The notes below the pieces were generated by a model. The model did no database searches. It was not told the origin of the DNA and saw only the letters and a program-made list of their open reading frames with translations. DNA of 36,485 nt from a virus, in the IMG/VR virus record IMGVR_UViG_3300042922_000564, positions 1 to 36,485 of that record; one strand, given 5' to 3'. Shown piece after piece: positions 1,129 through 36,485 of this stretch. Position numbers and translations under genes: made by a program. Each line of letters starts with the position of its first letter. The stretch's first letter is position 1.

Positions 1129-4100
1129 TTTTTCCTCTGCGGCGACGTTCGCATTGATCTCCTTAGTTTTGGCCAAAAACTCCTCGCTGGCTGCGGTCAG
1201 CTGATTATAGATTTCCAGCCGGACCTTTCCGGCAGCTTCGTCCGCCGCCTTCCGCTCGTCCGTGCCTTCCTTGTAACGGGCCTGCACCCGTTCCCAGGCA
1301 GCCAGTTCCTCTGTAAGAGAAAGCTGATTCGCCGCTGCCGACTTCTCAATCCATTCCTTAGAAGCCTCATAGCTGGCTTTGTCCATCTCCTGCTTCACCC
1401 GGTAGACTTCCTTATCCGCCGCGATCCGCTGCACGCTGCCCGCCTTATACTTCGCCTGCACCTGCTGCCATAGCACCAGCTCCTGGTTAAGCGAAAGTTT
1501 TCCGGTAGAGGCCCGGTTTTCAATGAATGCCTTGGACGCGTCAAACGCCTCTTTCGCCGCCTTGATTTGATCCGCAGCAGCCGTCTTATTCATTTTGCTG
1601 ATTTCTTCGGTGACTTTCCGGTGCTGGTCTGCGGTCTTCGCGTATTGCTTGTTGACCGCCTGAAGCGCTGTAATGTACTGAGACGCATCCAATTGTCCGA
1701 TCTTGTACTTATGCTGCGCTTTGGTGAAGGCCTCCTGGAAAGCGGTGTTGGTCTTCTGAGCCGTCTTCTTGGCCGCTGCCTCCGCTTCCTTGCTCCCGCT
1801 TTCAATACCGACAGCCAAACCCTGAGCAACGTAATACCCGTATTCCGTGGTCAGCTTGGAAGGCGAGTGAATGCCGAAGAAATTCCGGATGCTCTCTCCG
1901 ACCTTAGACGCTACATTTTTAGCGGATTCCTCCAGCTCGGCGGCCTTGCTCGTGATTCCGACCTTCAGACCTTCCATGATGTTCGCGCCGATGTCCTTCA
2001 GGTTAATATTTTTAAACCAATCCATCAGTTCGTTCCACTCAGCCATGACGTCGTCTTTAATCTTTCCGGCTATCTCTTTAATCTTGGTCCAAATAGCGTC
2101 CCATATTTTGGCGGCCTCTGCCTTGAATTCATTCCACAGCTTGGCTGAATCCTGCTTGAATATCGCCCACTTGGACAGGATTTCACCTGTTTCCCAGTCC
2201 ACTTGATTGACATGCTCTCCAGCCTGCTTCTTCGCCACCTCAATGACGTTCTCATACATGGAGTTGGCTTCAGACAGCGTCTTGTCATGCTGGCGCTTCG
2301 CTTCCGCGATCAGCTTGTCGGCCTGTTCGGCGGAAATGGTTCCGGCTTCGTCCCGCTGCTGGATAATCGTCTTGATAACCTCGTTGTACTGCTCATCCGC
2401 AGCTGCAATGGATTCATCCCGCTGCTTGACGGTGTTCTGTACAACCTCCGCTGCCTGCCGGGCTGTCAGATCATTGGCGTTCTGACGCATTCGCTCCAGG
2501 ATCGCCTTCTGCTCCAGCTCATTCTTGGACATATGCTGAATGCCGGTATCCACCATTTGCTGCTGCAGGCGGTTGATCTCTGCCCGCTCCGCATCGGTGA
2601 TTCCCCGCTTCTCGGATCGGGCCGTCTCCAGGATGGCCGCAATCTTCCGCTGCCCTTCCTGGATATAGGCTTGCTGAGCCGCCTGGTTCTGCTCCATCCG
2701 CTCCAGTGCTGCAACTTCTTCAGCTCCGGTCAGCGCCGAAGAATTCACGAAGAACTCCGTCATCGTCTGCAACTGCGCCGCATGATCTTCCTTCATGGCG
2801 GCGGTCACCTGCTCGCCCATTTGCGAAAAGGTTTCGACAATGTCCGCCGCTGTCCTGCCCGTGATTTGCTGCCCGAACCAATGCAATTGATCCAATGCCA
2901 CCGTTGCTTTGTCATTCAGGTCCATGAATCCGCCGACCGCCTTCTGCGTGGAGGCAGAAACTTCGGAACCGAACCGCTGGATGGTTGGAATAGAGTCCTG
3001 GCTGAAATGTTTATACAGCGCAATCCCTGCCACTGTCAGCCCCGCTATGGCGGCGACAGTAATTCCTATTGGCCCCGTTGCCACGGCCAGCAGAGCCGCT
3101 CCCAGCCCTCCAGCACCGCCCACGGCTACACTGATTGCGCCGACGGCGGATACAACCGAGCCGACGGCGTTGACTACGGCTCCAAGTCCGATCAGGACCG
3201 GGCCTGCCGCTGCTGCAATTGCACCGAAGGTGATCACCGCCTTGATGCCGGCCGGCGACATATTCGCTAAGAAGTCTGTGACCTTCTGAACCTGCACCGA
3301 TATCTTCGGCAGTGCATCTTCCGCGATCTTCACCAGCTCCTGACCAAGAGGCAGGAGGGAGGTCTGTGCTTCGCGGACCAGGGATGTCCAGCGCGATCCT
3401 AAGTTATCAGACAGGGCATCTCCCGCACTGTTCGCCGCTCCCTCGAAGTCTCCCAGGTCCGTGTTCGCCGTAGCGAAGAAGTCACGGAACGAGGGTCCCA
3501 AATCTTCCAGTGGAGATCCCATCAAGGCCAGAGCGACTTGTGATTGCTTCGCAGGATCCTTGATGGCAGCAATAGACGAAACCACGGCCATAAAGGCACG
3601 CTGAGTGGATTCCCCGCCAGCTGCAACATCCTTCTCAATCTTCTCAAAATCCAGGTTCATTGCCTTCAGCGCATCGCGCGAACTGGCACTGCCATCCCCA
3701 ACACGCAAGAACGACTCTTTCGCCGCGTCCCCGATTTTATCCAGGTTGAAAGCGCCCTTCTCTGCCCCTGAAATCAGTATCGCGGTAAATTCATCGGCAC
3801 TGTATCCCAGACCCTTGAACTGCGGCGCATATTCGCGCAAGGTGTCAAGCAGCTCATCACTGAAGTTCCCCCCGCGCTGGAAGCCGACCGTAATCAGATC
3901 CATCGCTTCATCGGCATCAATTCCAAACTGCTTCATCAGCACGCGGGCAGTCCGGGTGGTCTCGTTGACCTCAGCATCGAAGGCATCCCGGAGAATCAGC
4001 GCCTTGGTTGTGATGTCGTTCAGTTCAGAACCGTTGAGCTCCTGAATATTCTGTTTGGTCGTGATCAGTGCGCCGTTAACATCCTCCAGGTTCTCGCCCC

Positions 4101-23161: not shown

Positions 23162-23452
23162 CTACACCGATGAACTGCAACTTGCCCTCTCTCGTTCAAT
23201 AATCCATTCATCAAGAACGGATTGGCGGAACCGATAATCCGTCCCGATCTTATAAAACCTGATTTCCCCCCGCTTACACATCTGTTGTAACGTACGCTCG
23301 CTACAGCCAATGTAAAGAGCTGCTTCTGGCGTACTAAATGCATTATGCTTTAATTTTTGCTGGATTAATGGTTCCAACTTCTGCAGTAATCTACCAAAGA
23401 CATCTTCAGAAACCTCAGTTTTCAATGCCTCAATAAAATCCAAAGTAGACAA
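23162..23452 (-). CDS. Excisionase-like HTH (MerR/HTH_17) DNA-binding protein
   Basis: A 96-residue protein. The C-terminal half carries a winged HTH of the excisionase type: 'FSTPEAALYIGCSERTLQQM', then KRGEIRFYKIGTDYRFR and LDEWI. The N-terminal half is helical. The start is placed at TTG 23452 because GGAGGTG lies six bases upstream; ATG 23467 lies just upstream of that site. As the second gene of the early operon after Cro it may be the phage Xis or an early regulator. A repressor-type site (23487-23503) lies just upstream. Confidence 0.7.
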   Translation of the reverse strand: MSTLDFIEALKTEVSEDVFGRLLQKLEPLIQQKLKHNAFSTPEAALYIGCSERTLQQMCKRGEIRFYKIGTDYRFRQSVLDEWIIERERASCSSSV

Positions 23453-23486
23453 AATATCCACCTCCATTCTACTTCTCCATTCATAA

Positions 23487-23869: not shown

Positions 23870-24208
23870 ATGATGGATAACGAATTTGGTATCTCTGATA
23901 ATTTGAAGATTTTAAGAAAACGCTATGGCCTAACACAACAGGAACTGGCTGAAATTGCTGGAGTTACTAATAAAGCGGTATCCGCTTGGGAAAGAGGACA
24001 AAAAGAGCCTCGTATGGGTGCGATTGAGCGTATTTCAAAGCACTTCAATATCAAAAAGAGTAATTTAATTGAACATGGCGGAATGGATATTTTGGGTCCG
24101 GACCTTAGTAATGCAATTGCTCTCAGCTTTGGCAGTGAGGTTTTTTCAGAAAAAGAAATCGAAGACATCGTAAATTACATCAACTACGTGAAGGCTAAGC
24201 GTAATTAA
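23870..24208 (+). CDS. CI-like XRE repressor (lysogeny maintenance)
   Basis: A 112-residue protein: an N-terminal HTH at about residues 12-60 (LRKRYGLTQQELAEIAGVTN, then KAVSAWERG) and a short C-terminal helical part. It has no LexA-type Ser/Lys peptidase domain, so induction would not be by simple RecA-stimulated self-cleavage. It is divergent from Cro. ATG 23870 or 23873; GAGG lies about 12 bases upstream. Likely the phage immunity repressor, though a second XRE pair lies right of the att site. Confidence 0.8.
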   Translation: MMDNEFGISDNLKILRKRYGLTQQELAEIAGVTNKAVSAWERGQKEPRMGAIERISKHFNIKKSNLIEHGGMDILGPDLSNAIALSFGSEVFSEKEIEDIVNYINYVKAKRN

Positions 24209-24294
24209 TATATTTTCTTAAAAATCAGCGATAACCAAATTCTGTTTGTATACATATAAAATAGAACATACATTCGTGGAAGGGGGTGATTACG

Positions 24295-24525
24295 ATGAGA
24301 AACTGGGAAAAGATCGACGATAGTATCTATTGGTTCACTTTTGATTTTTTGAGACAGCCGGACAGACGGCGCATTCGGCAAAGGATGCGAGTGACGTTTG
24401 ATAGCCCGCCTACACCGAGTGAGATAAAAACCAAATATCTGCAGCTTGAGAAGACAGCAAGAGTACAGCAATTGCGTAAGGGGTTGAAAACCGATGCCAA
24501 ACTGGACGAAACGGGGGGAGAATAA
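24295..24525 (+). CDS. Orphan integrase arm-binding-domain paralog
   Basis: A 76-residue protein from ATG 24295, with AAGGGGGTGA upstream. Its first 55 residues align without gaps to the N-terminus of the adjacent integrase, with 14 identities (M.NW.K, Y12, RIRQ at 26-29, T.D at 34-36, P39, E43, E52). That part of the integrase is the arm-type DNA-binding (AP2-like) domain. The gene overlaps the integrase by 32 bases and is co-transcribed. A stand-alone arm-binding protein could compete for or co-occupy arm sites and so affect integration versus excision. Homology is seen; function is inference. Confidence 0.7.
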   Translation: MRNWEKIDDSIYWFTFDFLRQPDRRRIRQRMRVTFDSPPTPSEIKTKYLQLEKTARVQQLRKGLKTDAKLDETGGE

Positions 24526-25723
24526 GTACCGGCTTATTGCTGAGCTTGGGTATGACGCCAAAGGCAAGCGTATCCGCCAGACTACAACAATCACACTTGA
24601 TCATAAACCTAAAAAGGGAGAACTGGATTTAGCTGCAGCCAGGTTTGAAGAGAGTGTCATTAATGGGGAATGGAAAAAGCGCGGTATTGTCGGATTTGAA
24701 GCATTTGTACTGGGCGACTGGAAGAAGAATTATGCTGAGATTGAAATGGGGGAATACACCTGCTTCAATACTATGAGAATAATTGAAGGCCGACTGATTC
24801 CCGAGTTTGGTCGCTTTCAGCTTGATCAAATAAGTACAATTCACTTGGTTCGGTACTTCACGTCCTTGCGAGCTCCTGACGCCCGTAAGGACAAACGCAA
24901 AGGACCTTTGGCTACAAATACCTTACTTAACATTTACAAAGCTTTAAAATCAATATTTGACGCCGCTCATGAGTGGCAGATAATAACCAAAAATCCGATG
25001 GATGGAGTAAAAAGACCTACTGCTGATAAAATTGAGAAGCGCGCCCTAAAGAAACGCAAACGCTCATACTCTCCAAAAGAGGTGGAACGATTAATTACAG
25101 CCCTTTATAAGGAGCCGGAAAACTGGAAGCTGTACTTTATCGGTGTGTTGGTGGGTGGATATCGTCGAGGCGAATATTTAGCCGTGGAATGGCCAGCTGC
25201 GGATTTCCAAATGTCTAGAATTTATGTAGAAAGGCAGATCACCTTTGACAGTGATGGGCAAGCCACTGAAGGAGAATTAAAAACACTTGAGTCCGAGGGT
25301 TTTGTGCCGATGCCTCGCTGGTACATGACTGAGTTGAACGCATTTAGGATGAAAGAAATTAGAGCAAGGTTACGAATGGCACCGAATGACTGGAAAGGAG
25401 GCGACAGACATTTTATATTTCACTCCGGCCATGGCGAACCTTACTATCCAAACACTCCATCAGCAACATGGAGAAAATTCCTGGATAAGTGCGGGCTTCC
25501 AAGAGTGCGCTTGCACGATCTGCGACACACAACGGCAATGTTGCTGCGTGAGTACGGCGCAGACGTCAGAGCAATTCAAAGTCAGCTACGACATTCGAAA
25601 TTGGCAACTACCACAGACACCTATATGGAACGGGATAATACGTTTATTCCCGAAGGTGACAACTTACTGGAAGTTTTGGACCCAAATCGAATTGATGGAC
25701 ACCAAATGGACACCACAAGTTAA
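24494..25723 (+). CDS. int: Site-specific tyrosine integrase
   Basis: A 409-residue tyrosine recombinase. Residues 1 to about 55 form the arm-binding domain, about 68-175 the core-binding (SAM-like) domain, and about 190-385 the catalytic domain. Catalytic residues: Arg224 (GYRRGEY), His341 and Arg344 (HDLRH), His367 (LRHSKL) and Tyr377 (TTTDTYMER). The start is ATG 24494, overlapping the paralog gene; no strong ribosome site, so coupling is likely. The att core in tRNA-Gly lies 75 bases downstream and arm-type repeats flank it, one pair within the last codons. Confidence 0.95.
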   Translation: MPNWTKRGENKYRLIAELGYDAKGKRIRQTTTITLDHKPKKGELDLAAARFEESVINGEWKKRGIVGFEAFVLGDWKKNYAEIEMGEYTCFNTMRIIEGRLIPEFGRFQLDQISTIHLVRYFTSLRAPDARKDKRKGPLATNTLLNIYKALKSIFDAAHEWQIITKNPMDGVKRPTADKIEKRALKKRKRSYSPKEVERLITALYKEPENWKLYFIGVLVGGYRRGEYLAVEWPAADFQMSRIYVERQITFDSDGQATEGELKTLESEGFVPMPRWYMTELNAFRMKEIRARLRMAPNDWKGGDRHFIFHSGHGEPYYPNTPSATWRKFLDKCGLPRVRLHDLRHTTAMLLREYGADVRAIQSQLRHSKLATTTDTYMERDNTFIPEGDNLLEVLDPNRIDGHQMDTTS

Positions 25724-25798: not shown

Positions 25799-25846
25799 TG
25801 GAGCGGGTGATGGGAATCGAACCCACGCTATCAGCTTGGAAGGCTG
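25799..25846 (-). tRNA. tRNA-Gly (anticodon TCC), 3' half only: att core
   Basis: The minus strand reads anticodon arm CAGCCTTCCAAGCTG, variable region, T arm GTGGGTTCGATTCCCAT and acceptor strand CACCCGCTCCA with encoded CCA. The 5' half (acceptor GCGGGTG and D arm) is absent; the sequence diverges right after the anticodon stem. This is how phages that integrate into tRNA genes carry the gene's 3' end to restore it. It is not a functional tRNA in this window. Confidence 0.92.
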
Positions 25847-25996
25847 TTCCTAGGGTATGAACCAGATGGAATAAGCCGCATAATATTAGGTTTTCAGCGA
25901 GTCCGCGAGAGGAATGTTTCGCGGATTCGCGCATATGAACGCATATGGATGATTACGACCGGACACCAATCGGACACCAGGCCCGCCATGCTAATT

Positions 25997-26831: not shown

Positions 26832-27194
26832 TTAAGCATATACAATTGTGTGCGATGCTTTTCTTTTAATTTCTTTTATTCGATCTTCGGCCAATGGACA
26901 GTATTTTCCTCTTCTTTCGGCTGAAAAATAAGCCCGGCAAAAAAACTTGTCCACCAACTGAATTGCATCTACATTAATAACCCCGATCCTATCAGCACGA
27001 GCGAAATTGTATCCATTAAGCTTAAACAGGTCCAACCAGTAAACCAATGTTCCTACCGTATAATAGGTGTTTAATTCAGTATGCACAATAATTCTTTTTT
27101 CAGAGCGAAGATATTCAATAAATAAAATTTGATTTATAAGAACAGAGAATAATCCGCTGCCGTCGACTTCTTTTGTCACTGATATTGAGTGCAT
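26832..27194 (-). CDS. LytTR-type DNA-binding regulator without receiver domain (AgrA-like output)
   Basis: A 120-residue protein that consists of a LytTR domain only: ILFIEYLRSEKRIIVHTELN near the N-terminus, then 'YYTVGTLVYWLDLF' and FARADRIGVINVDAIQLVDK, matching the family's IxyIE, HT, FxRxHRS and VN..I positions. There is no phospho-acceptor receiver. ATG 27194 follows GGAGG; the frame's GTG at 27206 lies in that ribosome site. Last gene of the agr-like operon, so it is probably its transcription regulator, perhaps acting on the promoter at about 28510. Confidence 0.82.
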   Translation of the reverse strand: MHSISVTKEVDGSGLFSVLINQILFIEYLRSEKRIIVHTELNTYYTVGTLVYWLDLFKLNGYNFARADRIGVINVDAIQLVDKFFCRAYFSAERRGKYCPLAEDRIKEIKRKASHTIVYA

Positions 27195-27205
27195 ATAAAC
27201 CTCCA

Positions 27206-27325
27206 CTACAGCAATTCTTCTGGAACTTCCCCTTCGTACACATACAGTAAGCTCGCTGTACTAAGCGATCCTACAGCAACAACTGACAATAATGTTGCGA
27301 GTAAAGATAGAGCGCGACGTTTCAT
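27206..27325 (-). CDS. agrD: AgrD-like autoinducing peptide precursor
   Basis: A 39-residue peptide directly after agrB (three-base gap). It has a basic, amphipathic N-terminus (MKRRALSLLATLLSVVAVG) and a C-terminal tail YEGEVPEELL that matches the conserved AgrD recognition segment (DEVEVPKEL in S. aureus AgrD-I). Aligning those tails places SLLYV at residues 25-29 as the five-residue macrocycle, with Ser25 in the position of the usual Cys. The signal would then be a lactone, as known for S. intermedius. GGAGGTGA precedes the ATG. Exact N-terminal trimming cannot be predicted. Confidence 0.8.
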   Translation of the reverse strand: MKRRALSLLATLLSVVAVGSLSTASLLYVYEGEVPEELL

Positions 27326-27328
27326 TCT

Positions 27329-27850
27329 TCATTTCACCTCCCTCCATGTAATTAAAGTAAGACCTTGCACCAAAAAGCACAGAGTAAGTGTTGTTGATTG
27401 GAAGAAAAAACTGCTGGATACAATTAATACAGAAAGAATTTTTAAACCAGGATAGTATCGTCTCGGTATTCGATTTTGCTGTCTAATTCTAGAAGGCGCA
27501 TATACTATGTAAAGGATGATGCTAACTACATTGAGTATCTGAATATATTGCAATTCCAGGTGTATCAGAGAAAGTATTGTGAATGTAGTTGTTGTAGCTA
27601 AAACACACTTCATTCCCGACTTCAGATGAATACCTCCAGAAATTTGTCTTATAGAAGCAAAGACAATCAGTAGAATAATCACTTCCTTTGTCCGGCTGGT
27701 TACGAATGATACAAGTAATGTTCCAATAATAATGAAAGCCGTATTAAGCATAATGGCGAGTGAATATTTCAGGACAGCTACCGAAGCTTTATGATCGGGA
27801 ATATTTCGTTTTATCCCTTCTGCCATTTTTAATGCTAGTGTTTCAATCAT
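27329..27850 (-). CDS. agrB: AgrB-like peptidase/processing membrane protein
   Basis: A 173-residue integral membrane protein of the AgrB family. The catalytic pair is visible as His75 (ISGGIHLKSG) and Cys82 (MKCVLAT), seven residues apart as in S. aureus AgrB (His77/Cys84). About five to six membrane segments. It cleaves the AgrD C-terminal tail and forms the thiolactone or lactone ring. ATG 27850, after GGGAGAGGGAAG, overlaps the receptor gene's stop by eight bases; agrD follows after three bases. Confidence 0.92.
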   Translation of the reverse strand: MIETLALKMAEGIKRNIPDHKASVAVLKYSLAIMLNTAFIIIGTLLVSFVTSRTKEVIILLIVFASIRQISGGIHLKSGMKCVLATTTTFTILSLIHLELQYIQILNVVSIILYIVYAPSRIRQQNRIPRRYYPGLKILSVLIVSSSFFFQSTTLTLCFLVQGLTLITWREVK

Positions 27851-28472
27851 CTTCCCTCTCCCTTTTAAAAGAGTAGTACAAGAAAAACATAGAAAGCAGG
27901 AAGAAAACAAGAATATTCATGTAAATTTCTTTGTAGTACAGCAAAACAGATATGCCTAACAAAAAACCAATAATAGTTATTGTAAGCGCTATATCCTCAA
28001 ACTTAAATCGTAATTTCTCAAATTCAAAATTAAACCCTTTGCCCATGTGGTAAAGGAAATAGGCTCCGACTATAAGAACAATAGCGCTGATTACCTGCAG
28101 CAAATATCCATTTACGATACTATTATCTATTGCGCTTATTGATCCAAAAAACAATAACACAATGCAAGTCTGCGTCACAGCAAAAATCACATACCCGGCG
28201 ATCGTTGCAAGTAAAGAAAATATCAATGGAAGTTTTACCACAACTGTAAAGAAGATTGTAAATAACATGATACTGATTACCGGCGCAACATTTGCCATAG
28301 ATAAATCATTTCTCAGAAGATAACTTTGGAGGTTCATTAGAAGGATGAAAAAAAGCACTTGCCATGCGTACCAACTCCACTTAAACCTAAACAAGCACAT
28401 TATTAAAAAGTACATAGAGAACGCTTCAATAGTTGAAAAAAACATAAAACCTACGGGCTCCCACGACAACAT
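27843..28472 (-). CDS. Seven-TM membrane protein, AgrC-like sensor without kinase domain
   Basis: A 209-residue protein made almost entirely of about seven hydrophobic segments, ending in a short charged tail (SFKREREDD). The size and topology resemble the N-terminal peptide-sensing half of AgrC, but the dimerisation and HATPase domains are absent; the gene stops where the linker would begin. ATG 28472 is preceded by AGGTGG. First gene of the operon, overlapping agrB. It may be a receptor that controls the LytTR protein directly, or an exporter or immunity protein for the peptide. Family assignment rests on topology and context. Confidence 0.6.
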   Translation of the reverse strand: MLSWEPVGFMFFSTIEAFSMYFLIMCLFRFKWSWYAWQVLFFILLMNLQSYLLRNDLSMANVAPVISIMLFTIFFTVVVKLPLIFSLLATIAGYVIFAVTQTCIVLLFFGSISAIDNSIVNGYLLQVISAIVLIVGAYFLYHMGKGFNFEFEKLRFKFEDIALTITIIGFLLGISVLLYYKEIYMNILVFFLLSMFFLYYSFKREREDD

Positions 28473-28509
28473 GCAACACCACCTGACATAATTTTCATTT
28501 GACGCAATC

Positions 28510-28540
28510 ATTATACCGCCAAAAACCTAAAACCGTATAT
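28510..28540 (-). promoter_or_regulatory. Promoter of the agr-like operon
   Basis: A perfect TATAAT (28515-28510) lies 38 bases upstream of the receptor start. The -35 position holds ATACGG, far from consensus, so activation, for example by the operon's own LytTR protein, is plausible. No clear AgrA-type direct repeat could be identified. Confidence 0.6.
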
Positions 28541-34707: not shown

Positions 34708-35514
34708 TCACCCCGCATATTTTGCTTTGAATTTTATTGCCATACTGAAGTTCAAGCCGGTACCGCCAACGGTCACCGTCGATACGCCCCGGGGCAGCAC
34801 GCCGAACCGGGCATTGGTATGAAGCAGCACGTTTGTTGAGCCAATACGCGCCGTCCGTCGCTGGAAGTCAAGAACCAGTGTTCCAGACATGGGAACATTG
34901 TAGGTAGTAACCACACCGCCCACAGTCAGCGAAAGCGTGCTGAAGCTTCCGGAAATCTCAATGACCGGCTTAACGTTTAGCGATCCATAATTTTCAATGG
35001 ATAGCGCAATCGGCCCATTGACCGCAAAATTATAAGCAGCGTCCAGAGATATTGCCGTGTCAACCAGAATCGGAGTATCCACGTTAATATCGTCAGAGTC
35101 AAATATACTGTAGGCATAAGGATCAAAGGCGGTGAACGGTAAGGAAAATTTGCCTAATCCGGCTGACCGGTTTATGGGCAACTGTCCGGAGTAACGAACC
35201 ATGTAATGCCGGTCCGGCAGCAGCTCAAAGATCAGAGGAATGGTTCTCGGTCTGCCGTCGCCGTCCAGCAAGAACTCTGCCAAGGCCGAAATACGCCGCT
35301 GCAGCTGATAGGGGTTGCGCTCATTAAAAGCACAATCCAGTATCAACGGCAACGGAGCCAGATCCGCCCCGAAGTCATACGCACCGTGCATGAAGGGAAC
35401 GGTGTATGAACGGTCAACCGTAGGGGGCAGGATAGGGCGCTGCGACTCCCTCAGTGTCTTCAAGCCCATGTCCTGCGGACTCATACCGTCCAATAATGCA
35501 ACTACGCCTCTCAT
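34708..35514 (-). CDS. Distal tail protein (Dit)
   Basis: A complete 268-residue Dit of the SPP1 gp19.1 / Siphovirus tail component type. The N-terminus (MRGVVALLDGMSPQDMGLKT, RSYTVPFMHGAYDFG) forms the ring domain, and the C-terminal part from about residue 140 is a galectin-like beta domain (LSIENYGSLNVKPVIEISG). It overlaps the tape measure stop by four bases. The first 52 codons, also present at the left end of the window, give an identical protein. Confidence 0.9.
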   Translation of the reverse strand: MRGVVALLDGMSPQDMGLKTLRESQRPILPPTVDRSYTVPFMHGAYDFGADLAPLPLILDCAFNERNPYQLQRRISALAEFLLDGDGRPRTIPLIFELLPDRHYMVRYSGQLPINRSAGLGKFSLPFTAFDPYAYSIFDSDDINVDTPILVDTAISLDAAYNFAVNGPIALSIENYGSLNVKPVIEISGSFSTLSLTVGGVVTTYNVPMSGTLVLDFQRRTARIGSTNVLLHTNARFGVLPRGVSTVTVGGTGLNFSMAIKFKAKYAG

Positions 35515-36485
35515 GTCACCACCCCCGCCCCCCGTAATGCATCTGCTAATTGGCCGCCCAGTACCTGGCCCAATCGTCTCGCCTCGTCTTCGTCTTTCAT
35601 GATGAAATTCGCTCCTGCAAACAGACCTTGTAACACCACTTGAATAACCCCTGTTGGCGCCGCTGCGGCAGCAGACGCTTCCGTGGAGGCAGAACCACTA
35701 CCATTATTTACAGAGGACGACTGAAGACTCGGCATCGCCGCTGCTGCCATGGCTTGCGCCTGGCGCTCGATGCTGGCCATCGTACCCGCCAACCCTTCGA
35801 CCAATCCGGAACCGGCCATTTCGCCGATCCACGCCAGCTCCCGTGAAGGCGAATGAATGTCCAGCGCCTTTTGCATCGTCTTGGTAACTGAATTGGCGAT
35901 TTCCTTCGCTTTGGCGGATACGGCTCCCTGCATACTGGTCATACCGTCAATGAGCCCCTGCATAGCCTGCTTGCCAATCGTCGGCAGATCTGCCTTCATG
36001 GCATTGAATTCCTTATTGGCGCTGCCGCGTATGGCCTTGACCTTGGTTTCAAAGTCTCCGCGTAGCTTATCCAGCTCTGCGACGGCTTCCGTATGCAGCA
36101 GCGCAATTTGCGTATTGGTATCCTGGCGTAGACCGGACAGTTCAATAACGGCAGCCGTACGTGCCTCGGAGGACTTCGTCTTCCAAAGCGTTGTATATTC
36201 GGCCAGCTCCGTGTCGGTCAGTGTATTGAGTGCGGCCAGCTCCGGAGCAGCCTGCGGCCCCATCTCCCGCAGCTGCTGAAGCAATCCCTGATCAATCCCC
36301 CGGGCAGACAGCAGTTGCAGGTTGGTCGCCCATTTATCCAGGTATTCGACCTGACCGCGTAGATTGTCCAGCAGATCCTTCCCGCTGGTCTCGGAAGCGA
36401 TCGTCACCTGGTCAAACAGCCCGGCGAAATCATTGATGGACTTGGCCCGCTGCTCCACCGCCGCCGCGTATTCATCATTCAGGCG
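35358..36485. repeat. Imperfect direct repeat, right copy (pairs with 1-1128)
   Basis: Covers the start of Dit and the last 325 codons of tape measure. See the left copy for details. The zone free of differences is 35358-35484; differences become denser to the right. Confidence 0.95.
35511..36485 (-). CDS. Tape measure protein, C-terminal fragment cut by the window edge
   Basis: The last 324 residues of a second tape measure protein, open to the right edge. It differs from the complete gene at 154-4731 by only four residues (two Ser to Asn, Met to Leu, Phe to Leu) despite about 60 nucleotide changes. It contains one IHSPS motif. It is a real, selected gene from a related phage rather than a mutated remnant. 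Confidence 0.9.
   Translation of the reverse strand, partial: RLNDEYAAAVEQRAKSINDFAGLFDQVTIASETSGKDLLDNLRGQVEYLDKWATNLQLLSARGIDQGLLQQLREMGPQAAPELAALNTLTDTELAEYTTLWKTKSSEARTAAVIELSGLRQDTNTQIALLHTEAVAELDKLRGDFETKVKAIRGSANKEFNAMKADLPTIGKQAMQGLIDGMTSMQGAVSAKAKEIANSVTKTMQKALDIHSPSRELAWIGEMAGSGLVEGLAGTMASIERQAQAMAAAAMPSLQSSSVNNGSGSASTEASAAAAAPTGVIQVVLQGLFAGANFIMKDEDEARRLGQVLGGQLADALRGAGVVT

Follow-up and report, generated by a model that had tools for sequence, protein, structure and literature searches.

A predicted stand-alone paralogue of the integrase arm-binding domain encoded directly upstream of int in a virus genome

Organization of the integration region

The window, i.e. the whole stretch of DNA that was analysed, consists of 36,485 bases of IMG/VR virus record IMGVR_UViG_3300042922_000564 and is from a temperate phage, probably one of Paenibacillus-like bacteria. 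Near-identical though not exact copies of the C-terminal part of the tape-measure protein lie at both record ends (154–1100 and 35511–36458, minus strand), and represent either a terminal near-repeat or an assembly overlap. A search for defence systems gave no match. On the plus strand, a cI-like repressor gene is followed by a small ORF, the integrase gene int and a candidate attP, in that order, and the features of the region are as follows:

23162–23467, minus strand: HTH_17 (excisionase-type) gene, candidate conventional Xis (PF12728, E 1e-13)
23870–24208, plus strand: cI-like HTH repressor gene, upstream of the small ORF and on the same strand (PF01381, E 2.5e-14)
24263–24276, plus strand: LexA-box-like site AGAACATACATTCG, with 2 mismatches to CGAACRNRYGTTYC (better strand) and 18 nt between its end and the ATG of the small ORF
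24280–24286, plus strand: Shine-Dalgarno-like AAGGGGG of the small ORF, 8 nt before its ATG (from the sequence)
24295–24525, plus strand: small ORF (P0001), 76 aa, putative stand-alone arm-binding-domain paralogue, predicted arm fold at residues 4–63
24478–24483, plus strand: Shine-Dalgarno-like AAGGGG of int, inside the small ORF (from the sequence)
24494–25723, plus strand: int, tyrosine integrase of 409 aa with its own N-terminal arm-binding domain (residues 3–56)
25697–25715, plus strand: pair of GGACACCA boxes with 11-nt spacing at the 3′ end of int, candidate arm-type sites of one arm
25802–25847, minus strand: candidate attP core, the 3′ part of a tRNA-Gly gene (blastn to an annotated phage tRNA-Gly, H47, 87.5 % over 48 nt)
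25961–25979, plus strand: pair of GGACACCA boxes with 11-nt spacing, candidate arm-type sites of the other arm

The integrase was recognized by Pfam (PF00589, E 1.7e-16) and by PHROG 1 (integrase, E 5.5e-41), and scored 47 bits against a profile built from 135 arm domains of integrases at other loci, with the window excluded. Exact GGACACCA boxes occur only four times in the window, as one pair to either side of the tRNA-Gly-like attP core. Autoregulation via these boxes was considered and set aside, as no exact box lies near the promoter.

A reading made earlier from the sequence alone (the sequence-only reading) had the small ORF overlapping int by 32 nt, and the ORF coordinates bear this out (24494–24525). 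Relative to the small ORF, whose last codons overlap int in another frame, int is read in the +1 frame. A programmed frameshift fusing the two was rejected because the frame of int closes three codons upstream of the int ATG, and the sole run in the overlap (six G) belongs to KRGEN codons. The product of the small ORF is basic (pI 9.9), and its codon usage scores above 95 % of off-frame windows, with one of its own off-frames scoring equally high.

Relationship of the small ORF to the integrase arm

The proposal that the small ORF encodes a stand-alone paralogue of the integrase arm-binding domain is well supported by BLASTP, shuffling, profile rank and the predicted fold. Residues 1–55 align with the N-terminus of Int, Met1 to Met1, with 14 identities and no gaps, as had been noted before (BLASTP E 9e-5, for a single comparison). 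The BLOSUM62 local score of 57 between the small protein and the N-terminal 65 aa of Int was reached by none of 5,000 shuffled versions of the former and, when the whole of Int was used, by a fraction of 0.0004. Against the arm profile, the small ORF scored 11.1 bits (E 0.008), a value reached by 1 of 5,000 of its shuffles, and ranked second of the 385 ORFs in the window after int, the next scoring 4.3 bits. HHalign comparison with 10 arm domains placed it in register, but weakly (E 0.042, probability 1.2 %), and there was no match in Pfam (up to E 10), PHROGs or NCBIfam. In the arm-family profile search that had been suggested as a check, the 135-arm profile placed the small ORF second and PF14657 (Arm-DNA-bind_4) failed to match it; a PF14657 match is also absent for the window's own Int arm. 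Because Pfam, PHROGs and NCBIfam are silent and HHalign is weak, the case for homology is built on comparing the two proteins directly, on the rank in the profile search, and on register and fold.

The sequence-only reading had named different predicted folds for the two N-termini as the outcome that would speak against it. AlphaFold, run on single sequences with no alignment, instead gives a beta-beta-beta-alpha arrangement for both, with elements E4–6, E11–20, E25–34 and H41–63 in the small ORF (mean pLDDT 78.5) and E3–6, E11–20, E26–34 and H41–56 in Int. This is the topology described for the AB domain of the IntTn916 group (PMC8138268). Searches of solved structures, which include the arm domains 3jtz and 3rmp, did not single out arm domains either for the small ORF or for the true Int arm. 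With VIA-align, the ORF superposed on the HPI integrase arm domain 3jtz with Z 3.9 and rmsd 3.1 over 52 aligned residues, tied with unrelated chains, and the true Int arm did so with Z 3.6, also among many ties.

The AB domains of IntTn916-type tyrosine integrases (PF14657; PMC8138268) share with the small ORF the positions of strands and helix and the N-terminal start, and a profile of such domains detects it. However, the small ORF differs from them in being a free 76-aa protein, in falling below Pfam detection and in its hallmark residues. None of the arm-domain residues R7, N10, G19, Y20 and G24 is retained; of these, R7, G19 and G24 (Int numbering), which are kept in most arm domains, are I7, L19 and R24 in the small ORF. 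Hence, binding of its product to the GGACACCA boxes is not to be assumed. W4 is limited to the small ORF and its own Int, and was found in 0 of 116 other arms. At 76 aa the small ORF includes no catalytic domain and thus is not itself a tyrosine recombinase.

Free arm domains in other phages

No relative of the small ORF was found in 50,697 phages, 72,556 plasmids, viral contigs, genome contigs or 394 Paenibacillaceae genomes; among the phages this held even at E 10, whereas the arm of the window's Int matches 34 phage records. The nearest relatives of Int, L006 (50 %) and L007 (43 %), are without a gene resembling the small ORF. None of ten genome matches (L246–L255) was convincing as a relative, and one, L248, is a spurious frame within another gene.

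Complete free arm domains were nevertheless found before int elsewhere. In a genome prophage (L286) the free domain is 62 aa long and overlaps int by 29 nt, and in two related phages (L314 and L315) it is 54 aa long with int 6 nt downstream. As in the window, these ORFs include an arm domain only, have their own ribosome site, lie directly before an integrase that carries its own arm and have a LexA-like box. Unlike the window ORF, they retain the hallmark residues typical of their arm type, and they share approximately 56–58 % identity with their own Int arm, as compared to 25 % for the window ORF. Short PF14657 frames in L292–L296 look like frameshift-broken integrases and were left uncounted. 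The 51 other integrases of the L314 family include none with an upstream free arm domain, and searches with two of the free domains matched 74 and 196 phage records, each at a single place. Judged from these sequences, the layout with a complete free arm domain before int is rare and recurrent, having arisen independently in a few other phages. The open-access literature yielded no paper on a naturally occurring free arm domain, although absence from it proves little.

Origin and persistence

When 127 arm domains were placed in a tree, those encoded free in the window, L314 and L286 were each nearest to their own Int arm, and local duplication is therefore favoured over replacement by a foreign integrase. 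With few columns in the tree and a very long branch for the small ORF (3.87), which leaves its placement unsure, this is suggestive.

A less probable though substantial alternative to the reading preferred below is that the small ORF is a non-functional remnant that happens still to be open, either what is left of the N-terminus of a previous integrase or a part of int that was duplicated and is now decaying. Precedents for both were seen. In L031, a truncated PF14657 arm ORF of 51 aa (2793–2948, plus strand; E 1.4e-7, profile positions 1–27 of 47) precedes an integrase with its own arm and is likely a scar of integrase replacement. In L290 (G735:C29), a stretch just before int is identical to the int arm at 31 of 38 positions (pairwise alignment), which on sequence comparison is a partial and recent duplication. 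The sporadic distribution of free arm domains, the loss of hallmark residues in the window ORF and its end in the other frame of int, as expected of a truncated fragment, also fit a remnant. However, a scar left by a foreign integrase should resemble known integrases, and in the phages, where the Int arm has matches, nothing was found for the small ORF, which the tree puts next to its own Int. Neither the gapless 55-residue alignment nor the open frame is readily accounted for by decay. When the Int arm was allowed to decay neutrally to 14/55 identity in simulations using substitutions only and assuming descent from the present Int arm, 81 of 4,000 sequences (2 %) still had a start codon and an open frame; the observed arm-profile score was kept by none of these 81. 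Under this model, an open frame that still resembles an arm is poorly explained by neutral decay.

The free-arm ORF and its ribosome site are both kept in L314 and in L315, and the dN/dS of L314 against L315 is about 0.4, derived from 8 changes, which are too few to show selection.

A LexA-box-like site upstream of the small ORF

The chance of finding a LexA-box-like site such as the one upstream of the small ORF in the 87-nt gap is approximately 0.02. In related phages, such sites are enriched near int (30/85 versus 27/425, p 2e-11; L006–L085 and L314–L324, upstream of int in Gram-positive phages), suggesting damage-induced int expression in Gram-positive phages. The integrase family of L314 has a lower share of close matches (16/55 with ≤2 mismatches in 200 nt). 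In the window, L286, L314 and L315, a site of this type lies directly before the free arm gene, and in the window it may function as an operator.

Proposed role of the free domain

The reading that we tentatively prefer, and to which we would give a little under an even chance, is that a local duplication taking in the 5′ part of int gave rise to the small ORF, that its product, a free arm-binding domain, was then kept as a protein in its own right, and that this protein is expressed together with Int and modulates it. The two genes would probably form an operon, with the small ORF first, behind the LexA-box-like operator, and translation of the ORF through the ribosome-binding site of int would lead to both proteins being made together, with output probably highest upon prophage induction. 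The small basic protein may bind DNA at or near the arms of the attachment site, or may contact the arm domains of Int itself, and either would alter the number of arm sites that Int can bridge.

Translation through the int ribosome-binding site would also be expected if the small ORF were a translational leader that opens this site and couples or limits Int synthesis, its protein being dispensable. The AAGGGG of int lies inside the ORF, which runs 32 nt into int, and comparable arrangements are seen in L286 (overlap of 29 nt) and L314, where the int ribosome site is within the last codons of the free ORF. However, an arm fold would not be required of a leader, whereas both the predicted fold and the arm-profile score have persisted, and we consider this explanation improbable. 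Slightly less probable still is that the free domain regulates another target, such as phage promoters or the att site of a related phage, rather than its own Int, for though a basic protein with changed hallmark residues, encoded next to the repressor gene in the lysogeny region, would suit such a role, no candidate target sequence was found and the promoter is without an exact GGACACCA box nearby.

If the free domain does modulate Int, a directionality or competition role, as raised in the sequence-only reading, is conceivable. Recombination directionality factors, Xis among them, mostly belong to the winged-helix or HTH proteins. They resemble the small ORF product in being small, basic, DNA-binding proteins of the integration module (binding by the latter being predicted) but differ in fold, and the window already includes a separate Xis-like HTH_17 gene as candidate. 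The isolated N-terminal domain of lambda Int is a parallel in that a free domain of this kind could take up arm sites or make contact with Int; it is a laboratory construct, an engineered fragment and not a natural separate gene. Bridging of arms by the N-terminal domain of lambda Int has been described (PMC4880445).

A broader proposal, that free copies of the arm domain have been split off repeatedly in temperate phages, are co-expressed with Int from a damage-inducible promoter and tune arm-site occupancy, we regard as possible but less likely than not. If true, split-off free arms would make up a class of regulators of integration derived from the integrase itself. Should the free domain work, site-specific recombination would be regulated by a detached piece of the recombinase, and a small natural protein would be available with which to separate arm-site binding from catalysis in the integrases of Gram-positive phages. 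As the layout is recurrent, the question can be tested in several phages. If the small ORF is only a remnant, it documents the duplication and replacement of integrase genes.

An agr-like cluster near int

A phage-borne agr-like cluster lies at 26832–28511 on the minus strand of the window and includes:

26832–27206, minus strand: LytTR regulator
27206–27325, minus strand: AgrD-like ORF, 39 aa
27329–27910, minus strand: AgrB (PF04647)
27843–28511, minus strand: membrane protein

In Brevibacillus phage Abouo, AgrB and a membrane protein also adjoin int.
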